This document shows, in pieces, positions 4,414-37,312 of a stretch of DNA of 44,205 bases. The translations under genes and the position numbers were made by a program. Every line of letters begins with the position of its first letter. Positions within the stretch are counted from its first letter, which is position 1. The notes below the pieces were generated by a model. That model worked only from the letters and a program-made list of their open reading frames with translations. It was not told the origin of the DNA and made no database searches. The DNA comes from Candidatus Latescibacter sp. (lineage in GTDB: Bacteria > Latescibacterota > Latescibacteria > Latescibacterales > Latescibacteraceae): NCBI GenBank assembly GCA_030692375.1, contig JAUYCD010000017.1:1-44205 (forward strand), given 5' to 3'.

Positions 4414-5646
4414 TTATTTTTCATTCAAGAAAGCCAGCGCGGCGGCGGCCAGCACGCTCACCCCGGTCTCGATGCACCGCTCATCCACATCGAATGAATC
4501 GTTGTGCAGAGGGAACCGTATCCCTTTTTCATCGTTTGCTACACCCAGTTTCAGATAATACGCAGGCATCCGATCGGAGAAGTGAGAGAAATCCTCCGCG
4601 GTCATGGGGCACTTCGCCTGGTATATCACGTTTTCCCTGCCGAGCAGGTCGGCAGCCGCCGCGGTGACCAGGTCATCCAGATGCGCATCATTGATGACCG
4701 GAGGATAGAGATCGTCCAGAAAGACCTCGTTTTTGAGATCGAGAATCCGTGAAACACCTTCCACCGTATCCTTGATACAGTCCATCATATACGCCAGGAT
4801 TTCTTTGGAAAGGGCGCGGACGCTTCCCTGCATGGTGACGCGCCCCGGGACGGTGCCCAGTTTGCTTCCGCCTTCGATAAAGGCGACATTGAGCGCAATA
4901 GGTTCCGATGGATCAGTACGCCGTGGAATAATATGGTAAAGAGAAGAAACAACTTCCGAGGCGCCCAGGATGGCGTCTCTCCCCCTCTGCGGCGTGGCGG
5001 CGTGGGCCTGACGGCCTATGATGACGATCTGGAACGCCTCCGCTCCGGCCATGGCCGATCCCGTCGCCACTCCCACCTGTCCGGCATTCAGGTCCGGCCA
5101 GCAGTGGAGCGACATGATAGCGTCCATGGGAGGATTCTCGAGCACTCCGTCTGCGATCATGGACAGCGCCCCGCATTTCTCGCCGCAGGGATTTTCCTCC
5201 GATGGCTGGAATATAAATTTTACCGCGCCGCCGAAACGGTCTTTCATTTTTGCCAGCACCCGCGCAATACCTATGACCACGGTGGTGTGGACATCGTGAC
5301 CGCAGGCATGCATGCTGCCGTCATTCTTCGAGCGGTAGGGCGCAGTGCTATTTTCCAGGATGGGAAGAGCATCCATATCGCAGCGAATCCCGATAACCTT
5401 CCCCGCTCCGAGTCCCCCTTTTAAAAGTCCCACCACTCCGGTCTTGCCGACTCCTGTGCGATGTTCAATTCCGGTTTTTTCCAATATATTCGCAACCACC
5501 TGCGCGGTGCGAATCTCCTGATAACGCTGTTCGGGATGCGCATGGATATCACGCCGGATGGCGATGAGGTCTTCCCGCATATCTTCAGCCTGCTTCCTAA
5601 CATACCGAAAGTCCTCAAGCAGGCGGTCATTGAAATGAATGTTCAT
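4414..5646 (-). CDS. M20-family amidohydrolase
   Basis: A 410-residue metal-dependent hydrolase of the M20D group (hippurate, IAA-amino-acid or N-acyl amino acid hydrolases). Visible landmarks are IRCDMDALPI at about 87-96, HACGHDVHT with Cys115 and His117, Glu150-Glu151 (PSEENP), His181 (SLHCWPDL), a dimerisation-type insert with GRQAHAATPQ, and a C-terminal His in PLHNDSF. All expected ligands are present, so it should be active on an N-acyl or peptide-like amide in the cytoplasm. A GGGGA ribosome site precedes the ATG. The neighbours are an aminotransferase upstream and an epimerase 12 bases downstream, which suggests a small catabolic operon. The substrate cannot be read from sequence. 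Confidence 0.92.
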   Translation of the reverse strand: MNIHFNDRLLEDFRYVRKQAEDMREDLIAIRRDIHAHPEQRYQEIRTAQVVANILEKTGIEHRTGVGKTGVVGLLKGGLGAGKVIGIRCDMDALPILENSTAPYRSKNDGSMHACGHDVHTTVVIGIARVLAKMKDRFGGAVKFIFQPSEENPCGEKCGALSMIADGVLENPPMDAIMSLHCWPDLNAGQVGVATGSAMAGAEAFQIVIIGRQAHAATPQRGRDAILGASEVVSSLYHIIPRRTDPSEPIALNVAFIEGGSKLGTVPGRVTMQGSVRALSKEILAYMMDCIKDTVEGVSRILDLKNEVFLDDLYPPVINDAHLDDLVTAAAADLLGRENVIYQAKCPMTAEDFSHFSDRMPAYYLKLGVANDEKGIRFPLHNDSFDVDERCIETGVSVLAAAALAFLNEK

Positions 5647-5793: not shown

Positions 5794-7082
5794 ACGGCGC
5801 ATATATCCCTCACAGCCTGAAGAAACATGCGCACCTCCTCCAGGGTGTTGTAATGCACGAGGCTGGCACGGAGCGGCATGTCATACCCGAAGAAATCCTC
5901 CGACATCGACCAGTATTTCATGGAGCGCATAGCCATCTTATAATCTTCCACCAGACGTTTTTCCACATCCCTGCCCGCCATACCCTCGACGCTGAAAGCA
6001 AAGGTGGGGTCGCGCTCATCCAGGCGGTTCGGATCGCTCAGGCCGTGGAACTTCACCCGGGGGATTTCCACTAGACCCGGAAGGCCGTCAATGCCGGTCA
6101 GCATGGCCCGGGAAATCTCCTTTTCATAGAGATCGATGGCATCCATGGCGATCTTCAGAGACCGCGCACGGCCCCGGTAGGAAGTATAGCGTTCTTTATA
6201 ACGGTCTTTTACGCGATCGCCCAGCCATGCCAGGTATCCGATGGTGGCGTCCACCGCCGCGTATTTGGCCTGATCGGGCGAGCCCCAGTGCCATTTGGCA
6301 TGAAGAGTGCCGTGATCCTTCCCGGCACTGTAGGGGCGCATGGATTCAAGGTGCTCTTTTTTCCCGTACATGAAACTTATATACTTGGGAGTGAAGAACT
6401 TATAGGCGGATATCACCATGAAATCACAGCCTATTTCCTGCACATCCAAAGGGCCGTGCGCCGCATGGTGAACTGCATCAATCACGTAGTAGGCCCCTGC
6501 CCTGCGGGCGATTTTGCCGATCTCGACCAGCGGGCTCTTGGAACCCAGGAGATTGGAAGCCGCAGAAACCGTGATCACTTTTGTATTCACATCGACCAGA
6601 CTCTCCAGGTGATCCACATCGAGCGTCCCGTCCGGACGAAGATGGGCAAAGCGGAGTTCGCCCGCCGCTCCCCGGCGGACCAGCTCACGCCAGGGATCCA
6701 CATTGGAGAGATGTTCATAGTAAGTTGTCACGATATTATGACGTTTATCGAGCTGATTCCCGAGAGCATAGCTGAGTTGGAAAAAAAGCGCGGTGGCGCT
6801 CTGCGCGGAAAGAATATTTTCGGCGGACTCCGCGTTCAAGAGGTCGGCGACTGCCTGAAGCCCATTTTGCATGAATTTCCCCGCTTCACGGCACTCACGG
6901 AAACTGTCGCCGGGATTGGCGCTGTGTTCAAGGGAAGCGATATACTGAGCCTCGGCAGAACGTTTCAATACCAGGGTGCCGGTGCCGTTATCAAGAAAAA
7001 CCCGCCGGCTGCCCCAGGTATCGGTTCTGGCCCGGGGAAATTCATTCTCAATGTCTTTCAACAGATTATTGTCAAAAATCAT
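5784..7082 (-). CDS. class V aminotransferase / cysteine-desulfurase-like PLP enzyme
   Basis: A ~432-residue PLP enzyme of the SufS/class V fold. The start is taken at 7082 (MIFDNNLL) because AAGGAG lies about 10 bases upstream; an ATG at 7103 is on the far side of that site. Numbered from 7082, Asp202 lies in VIDAVHHAAHG and the Schiff-base Lys228 in ISAYKFF. The DNGTGTLV and GSPDQAKYAAVDATIGYL segments fit the family. No desulfurase active-site Cys loop is obvious, so an aminotransferase or lyase role is as likely. The last two residues and the stop (Arg-Ser-stop) come from the repeat at 5708-5793. The M20 gene follows after a gap filled by that repeat. Confidence 0.87.
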   Translation of the reverse strand: MIFDNNLLKDIENEFPRARTDTWGSRRVFLDNGTGTLVLKRSAEAQYIASLEHSANPGDSFRECREAGKFMQNGLQAVADLLNAESAENILSAQSATALFFQLSYALGNQLDKRHNIVTTYYEHLSNVDPWRELVRRGAAGELRFAHLRPDGTLDVDHLESLVDVNTKVITVSAASNLLGSKSPLVEIGKIARRAGAYYVIDAVHHAAHGPLDVQEIGCDFMVISAYKFFTPKYISFMYGKKEHLESMRPYSAGKDHGTLHAKWHWGSPDQAKYAAVDATIGYLAWLGDRVKDRYKERYTSYRGRARSLKIAMDAIDLYEKEISRAMLTGIDGLPGLVEIPRVKFHGLSDPNRLDERDPTFAFSVEGMAGRDVEKRLVEDYKMAMRSMKYWSMSEDFFGYDMPLRASLVHYNTLEEVRMFLQAVRDICAVRS

Positions 7083-12432: not shown

Positions 12433-12568
12433 CAGCCCCCTAAATCCCCCAAAGGGGGACTTAACAGGCTGAAATACAACTGAATTATCCGGTTTTACTA
12501 TTTTAAAAAAAATACCATGTTTCATCTTTATTCGGAGAAAGTCCCCCTCCGGGGGATTTAGGGGGCTG
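12433..12568. repeat. MITE-like element with 30-bp inverted ends
   Basis: CAGCCCCCTAAATCCCCC at the left (12433-12462) is matched in inverse at the right (12538-12568, ending GATTTAGGGGGCTG). Each end is itself a small hairpin. About 75 bp of A/T-rich, non-coding sequence lies between. It sits between the LamG and thioesterase genes. Confidence 0.75.
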
Positions 12569-12596: not shown

Positions 12597-13064
12597 TCAA
12601 TCATCATACACCCGCCAGAAAGGCCTCTCAGGATCCCATCGATCGGTGATCTCTGCGGGAGGTTTCACCACCACCGCTGTGCACTCCGCAGTCACTGTTC
12701 CGTCCGGGAGCCGAATTTCACCCGCTACCTGCGCTCTAAGTGCTGTCTGACGTATGACCCACCCGGTCACTTCGAGCGGCGTTTCTGTGGGAGTCGGTCT
12801 ACGGTAGGTCACCTGCAGGTTCAAAGTTACCATCAGATTATTGAAATCGCCGTCGAGCATGATCGCGCGACCGGCTGTTTCGTCGAGCACCGCCGCCAGA
12901 ACGCCGCCGTGCACAATTCCCGGATAACCGTTGAAATGCTCAGGTATGGTAACCGTACTTCTGACCTTGTTGTTCTCAACATCGTTGTACCAGGTCATTT
13001 TCAGGCTGATTTCGTTCTGTCTTCCACAGCAGAAGCAGGTTCGTGATGAAGGCTGTCTGGTCAT
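12597..13064 (-). CDS. PaaI-type hotdog thioesterase
   Basis: A 155-residue hotdog-fold protein with HGGVLAAVLDETAG, the conserved helix start of PaaI-like acyl-CoA thioesterases, and the beta strand LNLQVTYRRPTP. The N-terminus carries CFCCGRQN, a cysteine cluster found in some members ahead of the fold, perhaps for metal or structure. Such enzymes hydrolyse acyl-CoA or aryl-CoA thioesters in the cytoplasm. AGGGG precedes the ATG. It is the first clear gene of the minus-strand run left of the foreign region, and its promoter would lie within 13065-13160. Confidence 0.88.
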   Translation of the reverse strand: MTRQPSSRTCFCCGRQNEISLKMTWYNDVENNKVRSTVTIPEHFNGYPGIVHGGVLAAVLDETAGRAIMLDGDFNNLMVTLNLQVTYRRPTPTETPLEVTGWVIRQTALRAQVAGEIRLPDGTVTAECTAVVVKPPAEITDRWDPERPFWRVYDD

Positions 13065-13411: not shown

Positions 13412-13543
13412 GCATAACAACTAAGCTCACCTGCAACGGGGAGAATTACCACTAAACTTTGTAAGCAAAATAAAACCTTGATAAACCACAAAACCTTCAT
13501 ACACGGCCCAGCCCCCGCTGTCAGGTGCAACGACGGGTTAGGT
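13412..13543 (-). other. attC-like recombination site
   Basis: On the minus strand the site opens with ACCTAAC (13537-13543, fits RYYYAAC) and closes with GTTATGC (13412-13418, near GTTRRRY). Nine bases inside each lie CACCTG (13522-13527) and its exact complement CAGGTG (13428-13433). The stem continues inward as CAGCGGGG/CCCCGTTG with one bulged A. A ~70-base loop closes the hairpin, and total length is 132 nt. Paired outer and inner boxes at equal spacing and an extrahelical base on one arm are the features of integron attC sites. It lies just downstream of a foreign gene. No integrase gene is in the window. Confidence 0.55.
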
Positions 13544-13651: not shown

Positions 13652-14541
13652 TTATGTGGATCGGATTTCTTTACCGTATGGCAACAAATTTTTCTCAACT
13701 GTATGCATTGTCATAACATCTTCTTCTTTAAAGTGGAATACAGGAGAGAGCCAAACAATATTATCTCTGATGAGATCAAAATATTTCTCATTTCGACTAA
13801 AGAGAGGCAGAAAATACACATTTGAATTTGAAAGTTTAGTACTTATATATAGCACTGCTTGTCTAAGTGTTGTTCCCGAAGCAACAATATCATCAACAAG
13901 TAATATCTCTATCTTTTCTTTCGCCGTTGGACTACAGGATTCAATCCCTTTCACTATTGATTCATTTATAGGATTATCAAAATACTTGTTTTCTCGATTT
14001 AATCGATCAGCCCATAATGATAATATCGGTATTCCTCTAAACAGCTCTCGTCCCAGGAGGTCAGCATACATCAGCCCTCCATTAGATATACCTAGAATTA
14101 CATCTGGTACAAATCTGCCATCTTGAACATTATCCCGCAGTTTACTTACAATATGTTGTAATCGCTCCCAGTATTCACTCCAAGCCATAGCCTTTGATGA
14201 GGTTACCTCCTCCTCCCTTTCTTTTATTATACCAGGAATTTCTACAAGCATCTGAGGGAATACATCAAACACAAGACTGTCAGTGGGACGGGGACGTTGA
14301 GAAATAACCAAGTTTATAGTATCAACAATATCATCTATAGCTTTTTCTGGACCATTGAAAAACGGAGAGTACTCAACGCATCTATAGTTAGTAATATCAA
14401 AAGGAATAACTGTCCCTGCCTGTTTTAAAAGAATAGTAGTTGACCTTCTTAAACCATATCGTATACCAAGTTCAAGAAACACATTTGGATTTTGTCCAGT
14501 TATATCAACAATACTTGTATCTGCTAATGCAATGTGCCTAA
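13652..14541 (-). pseudogene. 5'-truncated TIR/deoxyribosyltransferase-like + phosphoribosyltransferase gene
   Basis: The longest ORF with a usable start (GTG, 14482) gives 276 residues, but the frame stays open to the IS end. The extra codons read IALADTSIVDITGQNPNVF, which continues into LELGIRYGL. That is the conserved core of TIR-like or nucleoside 2-deoxyribosyltransferase-like nucleotide hydrolases (AD..I.D.TG.NPNV..ELG). The gene has therefore lost its N-terminus, probably about 60 residues, to the insertion sequence. The C-terminal half is a type I phosphoribosyltransferase with a PRPP loop at about 194-205 of the GTG product (LLVDDIVASGTT) and GISNGGLMYADLL. The gene is clearly more A/T-rich than its neighbours. 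A nucleotide-metabolising, possibly phage-defence, role is inference. Confidence 0.75.
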
Positions 14542-16197
14542 CCCGGATTATTCATAAATTTTTTTTTGCTGCCTGAGAATTGTGAAAATGGCCATGTATT
14601 AAACTTTCAAAATGGTGTTTCGGTCACCTTGAAGTGTGATTTACAAGAAACACAAGAACGCGGATGATTGATACATTAAGGTATACCTTTTTTTAGGTAA
14701 AGTGATCCCTTGAATGAAACGAGAACTGTAATTTACATGCCTGACACATTTTCGGTTACATCTGCATTACGATTTTGTTGCACATGGTGACGAATACATT
14801 TTTCAGGGGGAAGGAAGACGGGAAGATGAAATGAAGCTTGGTTTTCATTTCCCGGACTTCGACCCCGATTTTGAGTAAGCGCAACCGTATGGTATCAAAC
14901 TGGGCATTGGCGAATTCGGTGCCGGAAAGGGCTTTTTCTCTGAGCGTGTGGAGAATGACATAGGCTGCGCTATGGAGCATGAGACGGAAGCTGTTAGCCA
15001 GGAAACTGTGGCAGGATGTCCGGCCGCTTTTAAGGGCGAGCTTATGATCCTTGATAAAATTCTCCATCTGGCCGCGGCCACAGTACACCGTTTCATAGAT
15101 GAATGATGGCAGTGAGCTTTCCAGGCTGGTGACGATAAAGCGGATGTTGTCGCCCTGGGCGGAGACCTCAGCCATGACAATTACCCGGAGATCCCGATGC
15201 CATGTACTGGCTTGATAGCGCATCTGCCTGAAGGTGCGGGCTTTTGTACCTGATGCCTTGTACTCACGGCGAGCTGCCTCAAGCGCGACTTGTGCACGCT
15301 TTTTGAGAATTGAGGTACATGTCAATCCGAGAACATACAGAACAGCATGGGAGTCGCACCAAGCGTATAGTTCGGGTGTGGCAAAGTGAGAATCGCCGCG
15401 GATGAGGATGCCAACCTTTGGCCATGCCGCTCGAATGCGTTTTACAACCCGCTTGATGATTGCACAGGTCTCCTTGCCGCTGGGCCGTCTGCCGGGTCGA
15501 AGAATACTGGTAATCAGGTTGCCGCTTTGCCCCTCAAAGATGAAAAGAGGCTGATAGCAGTACTCATCGTAGTAACCGTTGAACAAACTCAGTTGCTGCG
15601 CCCCGTGTGTGGGATCATCCGTATCATCAATGTCGAGAATGATCGCTTTCGGTTCTGTATCGTACGAGGCGATAAACAGATCCACCAGTACATTGGCAAT
15701 ACGATAGATATCTCTTGGTGTCATGGCGTTCTCAAACCGTGATATGGTCGGCTGGCTTGCCAGATCACCCTCGGACGGTAAACGATTGCACGCAGCCTTG
15801 AAACCGGGATCGGTTCTCAGGTCATCAGCATCATTGGCATCTTCATAGCCGCAGACTATCTGCAGAATACGCTGTTTAAGGAGCGTTTTATTATCATGAA
15901 GCACATAACTCTGATGGCGGAAATCCGTAATGACTTCCGCAAGCCGGTCGATAATACCAATACTGTCTGTTATCTCTCTCAATGCAAGAACTCCTCCATC
16001 GGAGCTAACATCACCGCCGGTAAAATCCGCTGTCACTTTTTTGCCGGAAATCATTTTGAATCTAAGCGAAAGTTGGGTATCTTCTCTCATGGCAGGCTCA
16101 ACTCATTTGTATTGTGTTTGTTCGTCGTTATTTGTCTAACTACAATATAATACAATATATTAGTTGATGCACTGCCTTTTTTTATGAATAATCCGGG
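14542..16197. mobile_element. IS1380-family insertion sequence
   Basis: A 1656 bp element with perfect 17-bp terminal inverted repeats, CCCGGATTATTCATAAA at 14542-14558 and its complement at 16181-16197. It contains one transposase gene. The flanking tetranucleotides are CTAA on the left and CTAT on the right, not a clean target duplication. The missing 5' half of the neighbouring gene is not found on the far side, so the element probably took part in a deletion. Confidence 0.9.
14756..16090 (-). CDS. IS1380-family transposase
   Basis: A 444-residue DDE transposase, intact. The catalytic regions visible are LDIDDTDDPTHG at about 149-160, IRGDSHFATPELY at about 225, and the C-terminal GRGQMENFIKDHK carrying the Glu. 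The N-terminal TADFTGGDVSSDGGVLALREI is the family signature. It moves the element by cut-and-paste chemistry on the 17-bp inverted repeats. Length and frame are complete, so the element may still be active. Confidence 0.95.
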   Translation of the reverse strand: MREDTQLSLRFKMISGKKVTADFTGGDVSSDGGVLALREITDSIGIIDRLAEVITDFRHQSYVLHDNKTLLKQRILQIVCGYEDANDADDLRTDPGFKAACNRLPSEGDLASQPTISRFENAMTPRDIYRIANVLVDLFIASYDTEPKAIILDIDDTDDPTHGAQQLSLFNGYYDEYCYQPLFIFEGQSGNLITSILRPGRRPSGKETCAIIKRVVKRIRAAWPKVGILIRGDSHFATPELYAWCDSHAVLYVLGLTCTSILKKRAQVALEAARREYKASGTKARTFRQMRYQASTWHRDLRVIVMAEVSAQGDNIRFIVTSLESSLPSFIYETVYCGRGQMENFIKDHKLALKSGRTSCHSFLANSFRLMLHSAAYVILHTLREKALSGTEFANAQFDTIRLRLLKIGVEVREMKTKLHFIFPSSFPLKNVFVTMCNKIVMQM

Positions 16198-16234
16198 CTA
16201 TAAGTCATCAGTATATTTTTTGCGAGATATTTGT

Positions 16235-32400: not shown

Positions 32401-32555
32401 CACTCTGCATCGACATCGGCGAGGGCGCCGCTCTGCGCTCGCCTTTGGCGATTGCCGTGGTAGGCGGGCTGTTCACCTCCACGATACTTACTCTTATTGT
32501 GATACCTTGTGTATACTATGTGCTTGACAGTTTAACGGTGAGAAATAAAACATGA
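29454..32555 (+). CDS. RND efflux pump, first
   Basis: A 1033-residue RND permease of the HAE1/MdtC-like class with twelve membrane segments and two large periplasmic loops. The N-terminus is FAVDYPITITMAILALSLLG, TM4 carries GMLVDNAIIVMEN (Asp417, then Asn418), TM10 has VGIAVNDSIILVD (Asn936-Asp937), and RIRPIIMTSLTAILGMLP follows. The AcrB Lys940 position is therefore not Lys; this is usual for the VNN/VND subclass. It exports small molecules using the proton gradient together with the adaptor and TolC-like channel upstream. Its stop overlaps the start of the second, fused RND gene (ATGA, 32552-32555), so the two are probably made as a pair, perhaps as a hetero-oligomer like MdtB/MdtC. Confidence 0.94.
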   Translation: MKKLAQFAVDYPITITMAILALSLLGYISFSKLGMDIFPDLNNPRIFVELKSGERPPEEMERQFVQSIESQAIRQKGVVQVSSVSRVGSAQVTVEYSWNSNMDESFLDLQKTLKNLSANQQIDELNITQHDPNASPIILLGFYHPEITDMDELRRVAENFIQNELVRQQGIAEVKLLGKEEKEVIIETDDYLMKAYGLTPSTIASRITNNNRNVSGGSITESGRKYVIKGVSELDSIDDIGRIIVAEKQQTADTSAQGSSGAGSATVSVPVFLKDVATIKFQNKKPDNIVRVNGVRCMGIAVYKETKYNTIKAVTEFQHALVDLRKALPGYQLTIIQNQGDFVTQAVNEVQSAALVGILLSVLVLFIFLRRFGTTAIISLAIPISIIATFNLMYFDNLTMNIMTLGGLALGAGMLVDNAIIVMENIFRNMENGMPIKEAAVVGTAQVGGAINASTITTVVVFLPIVYLHGSAGELFKDQALTVSFSLLCSLAVAIFVVPMLAAQFLKSVPPGTKLTSIRFLRYRNFLSHLLDHRWLVIGVTSAIVAASFSLIPVIGSEFMPKPEARDFSIDIKLPEGTEINRTADAVETIESVVRQTLGDNIVSMFSVAGPSEEIGTSSTSVFQDENTATLKFSIKKESKLRTEYVVSQLTTELKKLPDVEVKVAHEQTALDVTLGTESAPMAIEIQGDDLDIIQNLTEQAKEKVSAIPDLFNITTSFDEGRPEIDLKIDRVRAGVLNVGIDNLTARLKERLAGTTAGQWENGGELRDITIELPKVGINDLEGIVIKNGNQDVSVNEVARVIIGQAPKEINRKNQVRIGMVTAHLKNVRPLNQVVADIRTKMSGISFPQDYKYAVTGEEQMRRDAFQNLKFAFLLSLVLMYMVLAAQFESLIHPFTILFSIPTAVVGTILAFFLLGKSFNIMAYIGLIMLVGIAVNDSIILVDCINQVRKEGASLREAILEAGMRRIRPIIMTSLTAILGMLPLCIDIGEGAALRSPLAIAVVGGLFTSTILTLIVIPCVYYVLDSLTVRNKT

Positions 32556-35500
32556 ACGTAATTCAATGGATCATAAACCGCAAGGTTTTTGTCAGTATGT
32601 TTTTCATCGGAATAACCATGCTGGGTTATTTTTCCTACCGCCAGCTGCCGTTGGAGATCATACCTGCTTCAGAACTCCCCTACCTGATCATCTCTGTATC
32701 GGGCAGGACCGAAATGGATCCCGACTATATCGAGAAACAGGCGGTGATTCCTAAGGAAGGCGCTGCGAGCACTCTGTCAGGCATCAACTATATTGAAACC
32801 ACAATCAGTCTGAACAGCGCGCGGATAACTGTATCGTATAACGCCGATGTAAAAATCAAGTATGCGTATTTGAAGCTGGAGGAATCGGTAGCGGCTCTGA
32901 AAACAGCCCTTGCAGGTGAATTCACTATCAATGTACAAAAGGTAGATACGCAAAGCATGTCCAATACTTTCATGGGTCTTCAGGTCCGCGGAGGAGGCGG
33001 CAAGGAACGGCTCCGCGCCGTCATCGACCAGAAGATTCAGAAGGAGCTGGAAGCGATCAACGGCATTGCCCTGGTAAATATCTCCGGCGGAAGCCTGAAA
33101 TCGGTTCAGATCACCCTCAATGAGCAGGCCTGCAAAGCCTACAATGTGACATCCGGGAGAATCCGTCAGGCCATCACGCAGAACAGCCAGAGTAAAACCT
33201 ACCTGGGCTATGCCTATACCCATGATAAAAAATACGTGGTTAACCTGGTTACCGACTATACGGATGTTAGCGATCTGGAAAACATCGTGGTGAACACGAA
33301 CGGCCCCATCCTTCTGAAAGATGTGGCGGATGTTACCTTCGGGGCACAGGAAGAGACTTCCATCAGCCGGGTCAACGGCAAGGATTCAATCACCATCCAG
33401 CTCGTCCGTGATTCCCAGGCGAACCTGATCGATCTGTCTCACACTACCCGCGGGATTATCAACCGTCTCAACACCCAGCTTGCTCCGCAGGATGTGCAGA
33501 TCGTCGTTCAGACCGACTCCGCCGATGAAATGGAAAAGAATCTCAATCTCATCATCGAGCTGGCTCTTGTTGGCGGAATGATGGCCATTGTCATCCTCTG
33601 GTTGTTTCTCCGGAACTTTAAGCTGGTGGCTATCATCGCCCTGGCTATTCCCATATCCATTTTCACCGCCTTCAATTTCTTCTATGCCTTCGGGATAACC
33701 ATCAACAGCCTGACCCTGGTAGGAATCGCACTGGCAGTGGGAATGCTTCTCGACAACGGGGTGGTCGTGCTGGAGAATATCATGCGTCTCCTTGCCGCGC
33801 ACCGTGACCGAACCACCGCGGTGCTTCAGGGAACAACGGAGGTATGGCGCGCTATTGTTGCGTCGACGTTCACCACCATCGTGGTATTCATGCCCTTTAT
33901 TTTTTCTTCCGATGCAGCGATCAGACTGATTGGAAAGCAAACGGGAGTGTCGATTGTTTCAACGCTTCTCGTTTCACTCCTCGTGGCGATTTTCCTAATC
34001 CCGGCGATCACTCATTTTACCCTCCAGCGGGAGAAGGATACCCAAAAGCTGATTTTCAACAAGGTCTCCCATAAGAACCGTCTCGTCCAGATATATAAAC
34101 TCCTCCTGAAATCCGCCATGCGTTTTCCGGCGAGAACCATTTTCGGGGCGGTTACCGTTTTTCTCCTGAGCGTGCTCATCTGCTTCACCCTGAGCCTGAA
34201 TGTATCCCGTGAGGTTGAGCTGAAGCAGTTCACCCTGTACCTCACCGCACCGAAAGGCTCAACCCTCGTTATGACCGACCAGTTGACCCAGAATCTGGAA
34301 ACAAGGCTTGTGGATATCGAAGAGATACAGGACCGCATCGCCAATGTGGTCGAGGAAGAATCGACGATCTCGGTCATATTGAAAGACAATTACTCGAAAA
34401 TCAAAAAACGTTCCATAGTCGATATCAAGGCTGATATCCAGAACCGGATCAATCAGTTCCCCGCATCGGAGGTAAGTCTCTCCGAGCCTCAGGCAAGCAG
34501 CCGTTACGGCGGGGGAAGTTCTAGGTCCTCCGGACCCTCACTGGAAAAGTATCTTGGAATAGGCACCCCATCTGAAAGAATCCTGGTCAAAGGGAATGAT
34601 TTTTACATGATGCGGGCGGTCGCCGAGGATATCAGGTACCAGCTCGATAACCTGGATTCGGTGCAGTCGGTGTCGTTCAATGTGGATGACAACCGTCCGG
34701 AAGTCCACCTCCATTTTGACCGGGGGCTCATGAGCAAAGAGAACATCACTCCCTCGAATATCGCCAGCGAAGTGGCATCCATGAACAGGCAGGTCAGCTC
34801 GTCGATGAAATTCAAGCAGGGAGTGGAAGAATACAACATCGATATCAAGAACGAACCGGAAGACCCTTCGGATCCGACCAAAAAGCCTGCTGATAAAAAC
34901 GCCGACGACCTTCGGGCGCTCCTTATCCCAACTCAGTCCGGAGCTTTATATACTCTGGATCAGTTGAGCCGGATTGTGTTCGGGCAGGGACGAGCCGGAA
35001 TCAAGCGGCTGAACCAGGAAAAACAGATACAAATCACATATCGTTTCAACTCCGATGTGAATGAATCCAAACCCTATCTGGAAACTTCCCGGGGCGATGT
35101 GGATGAAGTCATCGCCAGCCTTACCCTTCCTCCGGGAGTGGCAGTGGAAGCAGTCCACACCGAGACGGATTTCAGCGAATTTTACTTCCTCATCGGAGCG
35201 GCGTTCTTTCTTATCTATATGCTCTTGGCTTCGGTGTTCGAATCGTTCACCGCTCCGGTGGTCATGATGTTCACCATACCGCTGGCGGCAATAGGCGCAC
35301 TCTGGGCGCTTATCCTCACCAACAACTCGATTCTCAACGCCAACTCCCTGATCGGATTTCTCATTCTCCTGGGGGTGGTGGTCAATAACGGCATTCTGCT
35401 GATCGATTACACCCGTATTCTCCGAAGGCGCGGGTTCACCCGCTCACGGGCGATCATGATGGCGGGTCAGGCGCGGGTGCGTCCGATTCTCATCACTGCG

Positions 35501-37312
35501 ATCGTCACCATCATCGGGATGCTCCCCCTGGCTATGGGCAAGGGCGGATATGTAGACCGTATCGGGGCGCCGTTCGCCATCACGGTTATCGGGGGACTCA
35601 GCCTGAGCACCCTCTTCACCCTGGTGTTCATCCCGACCGTCTATTCCGGTATGGAAAAGGCCCTGGAATGGCTGAAGAGCCTTCACTGGATGCTGAAAGC
35701 CCTGCAGCTTGTGGTTCTCGCTGTTGTTGCCCTCTTCATTTACACCAATGTGGACAGTCTTCTCTGGAAGTTCGCTTACTGGTTTGCCGCAGTTCTTTTG
35801 ATTCCTTCTACGCTTTATTTCATAACATCCAGCCTTAGGCAGGCCAAAACCGAGTATATCGGCCGCGATGAGTCATTGCACATCAAGCTCCAACGGATGG
35901 TCAAGATATACGATGACGACAGCCGGTTTGTGCGGGAATGGAAAAAAGGCGGCCGTATAGAGGCTGCGACCGGCGCAGCAAAGGAGTACCATACCTGGAG
36001 AGATTTCAATCATTTCCTCTGGGAAGTGCCGCTCCTGGGATTTGTAATTTACTTTGTCTATTTTTATATACAGTCTCATCTCTGGATTTTCCTTCTTTCC
36101 AACATTATATACTTCTACACGCTTTTCCTTTGGGGGATAGTCGGGAAGTACCTGGAAAACCGTGCAAAAGATACGGGAAAAGAATTATTCATGAAAATCC
36201 GTTCCGCAGGTCATGATAGCCTGCTCTGGGGACTTCCGGCGGTTTATCTTTGGGTATTCGATCAATTTGGTTTCAAGATCGCGGTGATCTGTTTGATCGC
36301 TTTTGTCTGGTATTTTGCACTCGTGATCCACACAACGGCGGAGTGGCTCCATAGGAGCGGGATCAACATCATGCGGCTCAAGGGAAGATTTGCGGGACTC
36401 AGACTTTTGTTCTACCGTTTCGTCCGCTTCGTACCCGTTATCGGAGAGAAAAAGAACCCGTTTAACGCCCTGGACGGAGTATCCATAGATATTGAAAATG
36501 GTATGTTCGGACTTCTGGGGCCTAACGGCGCCGGAAAAACAACGCTCATGCGGATTGTCTGCGGAATCTTTAATCAAACTATGGGAACCGCCTGGATCAA
36601 CGGTATAGACTTCCGTGAAAAACGGGAGGAGCTTCAGGGCCTCATCGGCTATCTCCCGCAGGAGTTCGGTACGTATGAAAATATGACCGCCTACGAATTT
36701 CTCGATTACCTGGCCATACTGAAGCGCATCTATGACCGTGACACCCGGAAGGAGCATGTTGAATACGCCCTCAAGTCAGTGCACCTTTTCGACAAGAAGG
36801 ACCAGAAGATCGGCTCATATTCGGGAGGAATGAAACAGCGCATGGGCATTGCATTGACCCTCCTGCATCTGCCGCGCATTCTCGTGGTCGATGAACCGAC
36901 AGCGGGCCTGGACCCCCGTGAGCGGATACGGTTCCGGAATCTCCTTGTGGAACTGAGCCGTGACCGGATTGTATTATTTTCCACACACATCATCGAAGAT
37001 ATTTCCAGCTCCTGCAACATGGTGGCGGTGCTCAACCGCGGAAAACTCGCCTATCTCGGCAACCCGTTCCAGATGACCGATGCGGTACGGGGGAAAGTAT
37101 GGCAGTTCCTGGTAGAGCCGGAGGCTTTCCTCGGACTCCGTGAACACCTGCGGATTGTTCACCACATGCGGTTCGAGGATAAGATAAGGGTGCGGTGCCT
37201 CGGCGAAACTCCACCCTGTCCGGGCGCTGAGGAAGTACAACCCACCATGGAAGATGCCTATCTGTGGCTTTTGGGTAAGAAGCATATTGATGCCGAAGCA
37301 AGTCCGGCATGA
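32552..37312 (+). CDS. RND efflux pump fused to six TM helices and an ABC ATPase
   Basis: One uninterrupted frame of 1586 codons. Residues 1 to about 1035 are a full RND permease (GMLLDNGVVVLEN with Asp401-Asn402 in TM4, VVVNNGILLID with Asn945-Asn946 in TM10, RVRPILITAIVTIIGMLP). Residues about 1045-1275 add six further membrane segments (LVVLAVVALFIY, WFAAVLLIPSTLYFI, LLGFVIYFVYFYI, FLLSNIIYFYTLFLW, LPAVYLWVFDQF, VICLIAFVWYFALVI). Residues about 1290-1586 are a complete ABC ATPase: Walker A GPNGAGKTT at 1323, Q-loop YLPQEF, signature YSGGMKQR at 1423, Walker B VVDEPTAGLDP with Asp1447-Glu1448, H-loop His1479. The next gene is an ABC-2 permease. The last codons and stop come from a dispersed repeat. 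I know of no characterised protein with this architecture. Confidence 0.92.
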   Translation: MNVIQWIINRKVFVSMFFIGITMLGYFSYRQLPLEIIPASELPYLIISVSGRTEMDPDYIEKQAVIPKEGAASTLSGINYIETTISLNSARITVSYNADVKIKYAYLKLEESVAALKTALAGEFTINVQKVDTQSMSNTFMGLQVRGGGGKERLRAVIDQKIQKELEAINGIALVNISGGSLKSVQITLNEQACKAYNVTSGRIRQAITQNSQSKTYLGYAYTHDKKYVVNLVTDYTDVSDLENIVVNTNGPILLKDVADVTFGAQEETSISRVNGKDSITIQLVRDSQANLIDLSHTTRGIINRLNTQLAPQDVQIVVQTDSADEMEKNLNLIIELALVGGMMAIVILWLFLRNFKLVAIIALAIPISIFTAFNFFYAFGITINSLTLVGIALAVGMLLDNGVVVLENIMRLLAAHRDRTTAVLQGTTEVWRAIVASTFTTIVVFMPFIFSSDAAIRLIGKQTGVSIVSTLLVSLLVAIFLIPAITHFTLQREKDTQKLIFNKVSHKNRLVQIYKLLLKSAMRFPARTIFGAVTVFLLSVLICFTLSLNVSREVELKQFTLYLTAPKGSTLVMTDQLTQNLETRLVDIEEIQDRIANVVEEESTISVILKDNYSKIKKRSIVDIKADIQNRINQFPASEVSLSEPQASSRYGGGSSRSSGPSLEKYLGIGTPSERILVKGNDFYMMRAVAEDIRYQLDNLDSVQSVSFNVDDNRPEVHLHFDRGLMSKENITPSNIASEVASMNRQVSSSMKFKQGVEEYNIDIKNEPEDPSDPTKKPADKNADDLRALLIPTQSGALYTLDQLSRIVFGQGRAGIKRLNQEKQIQITYRFNSDVNESKPYLETSRGDVDEVIASLTLPPGVAVEAVHTETDFSEFYFLIGAAFFLIYMLLASVFESFTAPVVMMFTIPLAAIGALWALILTNNSILNANSLIGFLILLGVVVNNGILLIDYTRILRRRGFTRSRAIMMAGQARVRPILITAIVTIIGMLPLAMGKGGYVDRIGAPFAITVIGGLSLSTLFTLVFIPTVYSGMEKALEWLKSLHWMLKALQLVVLAVVALFIYTNVDSLLWKFAYWFAAVLLIPSTLYFITSSLRQAKTEYIGRDESLHIKLQRMVKIYDDDSRFVREWKKGGRIEAATGAAKEYHTWRDFNHFLWEVPLLGFVIYFVYFYIQSHLWIFLLSNIIYFYTLFLWGIVGKYLENRAKDTGKELFMKIRSAGHDSLLWGLPAVYLWVFDQFGFKIAVICLIAFVWYFALVIHTTAEWLHRSGINIMRLKGRFAGLRLLFYRFVRFVPVIGEKKNPFNALDGVSIDIENGMFGLLGPNGAGKTTLMRIVCGIFNQTMGTAWINGIDFREKREELQGLIGYLPQEFGTYENMTAYEFLDYLAILKRIYDRDTRKEHVEYALKSVHLFDKKDQKIGSYSGGMKQRMGIALTLLHLPRILVVDEPTAGLDPRERIRFRNLLVELSRDRIVLFSTHIIEDISSSCNMVAVLNRGKLAYLGNPFQMTDAVRGKVWQFLVEPEAFLGLREHLRIVHHMRFEDKIRVRCLGETPPCPGAEEVQPTMEDAYLWLLGKKHIDAEASPA

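Follow-up and report, generated by a model that had tools for sequence, protein, structure and literature searches.

A gene joining a DrHyd/TIR-like domain to a phosphoribosyltransferase domain, split by an IS1380-family insertion sequence, and its intact relative

The TIR-DrHyd-SLOG class of domains has been described, and DrHyd itself has been described as a conflict effector (PMC9503650). Phosphoribosyltransferases (PRTases) are probable effectors in retrons and in DprA-PRTase systems (PMC9122126), and NDT-like proteins and PRTases have each been named as retron effectors (PMC12548924, PMC9122126). Each of the two domains considered here is already known from bacterial conflict systems; no description of DrHyd and PRTase in a single protein was found in the literature searched. 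The gene in question lies partly within the window, by which we mean the whole 44,205-nt stretch of DNA that was analysed, and partly on a second contig of the same genome, C122.

The split gene and its two halves

The window carries the C-terminal half of the gene, an open frame of 295 codons that runs on the minus strand from 14539 to 13652 and ends with a stop codon at 13652-13654 (Table 1). A sequence-only reading of this DNA had stated, giving no strand, that the frame stays open upstream of a GTG codon as far as the end of an insertion sequence (IS). This is confirmed for the minus strand: the frame stays open beyond the GTG at 14482 until it reaches the IS, and the nearest upstream stop, at about 14552, is within the IS. 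The element is assigned to the IS1380 family (NCBIfam NF033539, E 8e-121), and its terminal inverted repeats are 20 nt long and 95% complementary. The genome contains at least 10 right ends and 5 full-strength left ends of this IS, mostly at contig ends.

Table 1. Positions of the features of the split gene and its surroundings in the window
Feature	Position	Strand	Basis
C-terminal half of the DrHyd-PRTase gene	13652..14539	-	Open frame; end-to-end alignment with residues 72-380 of L092, 32% identity
C-terminal portion of the DrHyd/TIR-like domain, bearing D-x-T-G-x-N-P-N-V-F-x-E-L-G	14285..14539 (approximate boundary)	-	PADLOC TIR effector; cousin alignment
Type I phosphoribosyltransferase domain	13655..14194 (Pfam match about 13853-14161)	-	PF00156; purine PRTase profile matches in PDB
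PRPP-binding signature ILLVDDIVASGTT	13868..13906	-	Match to PROSITE pattern PS00103
attC-like site immediately following the gene (R'' ACCTAAC ... R' GTTATGC)	13412..13543	-	Stem score
IS1380-family insertion sequence splitting the gene	14542..16197	-	Transposase 14756-16090, minus strand
CTAA, left IS flank	14538..14541	.	Identical CTAA after the IS right end on C122
CTAT, right flank of the window IS copy	16198..16201	.	Differs from CTAA

The N-terminal half was located when a profile of the window half and its intact relative L092, described below, was run against the gene's own genome. The match is at 101-295 on the minus strand of C122 (E 1.1e-11). This contig starts with the final 98 bases of the IS, which the gene directly adjoins, and the N-terminal half comprises 69 stop-free codons (G000:C122:101-307, minus strand), with a start at 307 (TTG) or 298 (ATG), and ends where the window half starts. 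The GTG at 14482 had been taken as the start; the true start is on this other contig. The earlier term "truncated" is better replaced by "split": 69 codons of the N-terminus lie open on C122, so that the IS has divided the gene and the gene has not been lost. Loss of the N-terminus was rejected for the same reason. The interruption falls after about codon 69, and therefore neither half should work alone. More generally, an apparent truncated orphan on one contig can be paired with its other half elsewhere in the same genome.

The tetranucleotide CTAA is found at the flanks of both gene halves, as would be left by a target duplication of 4 bp. This is supportive and not unique: the same tetranucleotide flanks 4 of the 10 right ends and 4 of the 5 left ends of this IS. 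Because CTAA is so frequent there, the flank match alone is no proof, and the protein evidence is the stronger. The other flank of the window copy is CTAT; as this differs from CTAA, the window appears to join the flanks of two different insertions, through assembly or recombination. Identical right ends of the IS occur in the window and on contigs C10, C45, C83, C102, C122, C174, C204, C220, and C241; they break nearly all of the contigs that carry them, and a whole copy is spanned by the window's contig only. The sole spanned copy having mismatched flanks, the window may have been joined in assembly or may result from recombination between IS copies. Synteny was uninformative on the join, because the thioesterase gene at 12597-13064 had no match in the three genomes of the same family that were compared.

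An intact relative and the two domains

When the GTDB genome collection was scanned with a seven-row alignment, an intact relative was obtained, L092, a 380-residue protein encoded on a Planctomycetota MAG contig. It spans the whole window half: all 295 residues are aligned (32% identity over 315 columns, E 2e-46), and chance is therefore excluded. Its N-terminus matches the C122 half with 46% identity over 70 columns (E 4e-18). Since one intact protein matches both halves, the DrHyd-PRTase fusion is a genuine, if rare, two-domain family. The sequence-only reading had called for full-length homologues, and had named those lacking the upstream domain, or located only in housekeeping purine/pyrimidine loci, as evidence against itself. 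L092 keeps the upstream domain and lies outside any purine or pyrimidine locus; thus neither was found.

The family is small. L092 is the one intact fusion among the matches listed in the GTDB scan, and in the whole genomes searched the fusion members were the split gene and L092 only, the remainder being N-domain matches and one free PRTase. Exact peptides taken from the last 212 residues found no relative in an 85k-species genome collection, and scans of viral contigs gave no full fusion. In plasmids and phages, tblastn gave N-domain-led matches only, none covering more than 80% of the query. Searches were run with each gene half separately.

The window half begins with a TIR/deoxyribosyltransferase-like core, present as ALADTSIVDITGQNPNVFLELG, which is followed by a type I PRTase, so that both domains named earlier from the letters are there. 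The half matches the PADLOC TIR-effector model (E 1.5e-9), as do all seven proteins tested. Among solved structures, a profile built from 46 N-domains has Rcl/DNPH1 as its sole PDB match at E <0.1 (best 9.5e-5). An AlphaFold2 model of L092 (pLDDT 73, pTM 0.48) predicts an N-domain of alternating strands and helices, for which Foldseek returns DNPH1, Rcl, MilB, and BcmB with target-normalised TM scores of 0.5-0.67; TIR-STING and plant TIR structures are also among the matches. The top Foldseek matches, to periplasmic metal-binding proteins, were disregarded as whole-chain alignments with an rmsd near 19. Within the TIR-DrHyd-SLOG class, the profile and predicted-fold matches assign the N-domain to the DrHyd branch, nearest to the Rcl/DNPH1 N-glycosidases. 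A Rossmannoid domain with a Glu after D-x-T-x-x-N-P-N, as in that class, is present, and homology supports the prediction of a glycosidic-bond-cleaving type of domain. PF10137, the model for TIR NADase effectors of CBASS and Pycsar, matches neither the window protein at E up to 1 nor L092 at E up to 0.5, and it gives sub-threshold matches only in the cousins that share the N-domain.

The D and E of the motif are invariant in the 46 aligned N-domains, the E partly through the selection of sequences. The cousins were gathered with the NPN..EL motif, and conservation of NPN and of the Glu is therefore partly built in, whereas that of D83 and F118 among the cousins is no product of the motif-based search. 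At two further positions the fusion departs from its cousins: L092 has V58 where 42 of the 46 have D, and Y99 where 43 of the 46 have H. By alignment, V and Y also occupy these positions in the split gene. Since both members share these residues, their substrate or activity may differ from that of the cousins.

Among 77 cousins, the partner is TPR-S in 33, a MAP3K TRAF-binding domain in 25, and a macro domain in 9; the one with a PRTase is L092 itself. Partners of the TPR-S, TRAF-binding, or macro kind are a known conflict-effector layout. Further cousins come from phages of Staphylococcus and Streptococcus. On a Salinibacter plasmid, a gene at L172 4785-8597 has this N-domain too (E 2.7e-12 with the PADLOC TIR-effector model) and adjoins an integrase gene and an Abi-alpha family gene matching PDC-S47. 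The nine fusions of a DrHyd/TIR-like domain to a macro domain include L094 (836-2050), L095 (4643-5809), and L096-L098.

The C-terminal domain of the window copy has both marks of a type I PRTase. The PF00156 match is above the cut-off (E 4.3e-8, 33.1 bits against 26.3), and the motif ILLVDDIVASGTT, which matches the PS00103 pattern for the PRPP-binding signature, is intact. Its counterpart in L092, LLVIDDNVASGTT, is one position off that pattern. The PRTase parts of the two members are 33% identical, and the retention of the motif in both at that distance argues that ligand binding, which is predicted, has been selected for. By profile, the closest solved chains are purine PRTases.

Mobile setting and neighbours

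The suggestion that the gene is A/T-rich and in a mobile setting is borne out. The window half has a GC content of 36% against 50% for the window, and this low GC, together with the IS, attC-like sites, and an antitoxin-family neighbour, argues for the mobility of the gene. The attC-like site just downstream of the gene has a stem score of 11, the highest of the 44-kb window, where the null expectation is 0.025 per 44 kb; folded over its whole length it does not surpass shuffled sequences (z 0.43). On C122, the top candidate is a strong attC-like hairpin at 369-426, immediately upstream of the gene (z -4.12). A third, weaker attC-like site (C122 840-961) lies between a gene for a DnaJ-type zinc-ribbon protein and the antitoxin-family gene (PF09720, E 5.6e-17). 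A search of the genome for an integron integrase was negative: the best TIGR02249 match has 84 bits against a cut-off of 265, and matches below the cut-off also occur in 14 of 14 control genomes. The attC-like sites and the antitoxin-family gene suggest that the gene probably originated as an integron cassette.

Two observations concern other parts of the sequence. An inverted pair of AGCCCCCTAAATCCCC is found in the window at 12434-12567 (two copies against 0.06 expected); it also occurs in L233 near 4569-4720 and 6775-6876, and similar stretches were seen by eye on C122. It is perhaps a small mobile repeat. On the plus strand of the window, 32552-37312 encodes a 1586-residue protein in which an AcrB-type RND permease (4-1032) is fused to an ABC ATPase (1307-1451), an unusual fusion.

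L092 has as neighbours a radical-SAM/SPASM/PqqD gene, an integrase gene, and a DUF4258 gene, none of them a defence gene. The first of these matches the PADLOC pVip model (E 6e-17); assignment as a viperin was rejected, because the protein is of the SPASM/PqqD kind and the match is confined to its radical-SAM core. Inspection of the neighbourhoods for defence islands, as had been advised, revealed no recognisable island: PADLOC gave nothing convincing adjoining either the split gene or L092. The two family members found are too few to link the family statistically to defence islands.

Possible roles and comparison with known systems

We tentatively favour the reading that the gene encodes a horizontally acquired single-gene effector, probably anti-phage, in which the PRTase would regulate cleavage by DrHyd. 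The whole effector, encoded by a single gene that appears to have arrived as an integron-type cassette, would have about 370 residues. In this reading DrHyd would hydrolyse an N-glycosidic bond in a nucleotide, perhaps a nucleoside monophosphate or NAD+, by means of the conserved Glu of NPNVFxELG. The ligand of the PRTase would be PRPP or a nucleotide, and this domain would more likely serve as a sensor setting when DrHyd is on than as a second toxic activity; a sensor role is also the one proposed for TPR-S and macro domains in the cousins. A defence role is plausible by analogy, from the company that the N-domain keeps elsewhere rather than from the neighbourhood of this family. The more specific proposal of a new immune effector in one protein, whose PRTase senses PRPP or a nucleotide and activates DrHyd when a phage disturbs the nucleotide pools, seems unlikely at present. 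If the PRTase is a sensor, a single protein could read infection from the levels of PRPP or nucleotides.

It is rather unlikely that the protein is instead a bifunctional salvage or base-exchange enzyme, the product of an accessory metabolic cassette gene, with the N-domain freeing a base and the PRTase attaching the same or another base to PRPP. The earlier two-domain reading is supported, and the idea that came with it, that the protein could cleave and rebuild nucleotides, is possible. The closeness of the N-domain to the nucleotide N-glycosidases Rcl/DNPH1 and MilB/BcmB would suit such an enzyme, as would the intact PRPP motif and the purine-PRTase-like profile matches. However, no recognisable purine or pyrimidine genes adjoin either member, and in the cousins the N-domain is paired with domains of the sensor type, namely TPR-S, TRAF-binding, and macro domains, rather than with metabolic ones.

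We consider it quite unlikely that both domains are effectors, the N-domain destroying nucleotides or NAD+ and the PRTase consuming PRPP or modifying another target. The window PRTase has weak PADLOC matches to ShosT (E 5.6e-6) and to the retron PRTase_III-A (E 2.7e-5), in keeping with the probable effector role of PRTases cited above, but these are partial, and the L092 PRTase matches no ShosT or retron PRTase model at E 0.001. Moreover, the neighbouring genes that were scanned or read, those of the window, of C122, and beside L092, include no retron reverse transcriptase, nor was a DprA-like partner of the ShosTA type found among neighbouring genes. That the gene is a decaying remnant without present or recent function, leaving the relative alone of interest, is improbable: an IS1380 element does lie within the gene in the assembled population and a single relative is among the matches listed, but both halves are without stops or frameshifts and keep the motifs common to L092 at 32-46% identity, so that the insertion looks recent and the gene under selection beforehand.

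The fusion compares with known systems as follows. The protein shares with the DrHyd conflict proteins the motif set, the PADLOC TIR-effector match, the N-terminal position of the domain, and a variable C-terminal partner; it differs in having a PRTase as that partner and in the change of two nearly invariant positions in both PRTase-fused members. Among solved structures, the 2'-deoxynucleoside 5'-phosphate N-hydrolase Rcl/DNPH1 comes closest to the N-domain in both profile and predicted fold, but it is a single-domain protein of about 16% identity, and the sequence match spans only part of the domain. The purine PRTases GpT-1/GpT-2 (4trb, 4z1o) and 7kl6, which are the solved enzymes closest by profile to the C-domain, are free-standing, and a loop that reads ARGG in 4trb is SNGG or TNGG in the fusion. 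The fusion PRTase presumably has an A at the position of the general-base Asp of the 6-oxopurine enzymes. Retron effectors likewise include NDT-like and PRTase domains (PMC12548924), whereas the fusion gene has no reverse transcriptase near it and holds both domains in one protein. Finally, the DrHyd-macro fusions L094-L098 have the same N-domain family and a C-domain of ligand-binding type; in them, and in macro-domain Thoeris, a macro domain stands in place of the PRTase.
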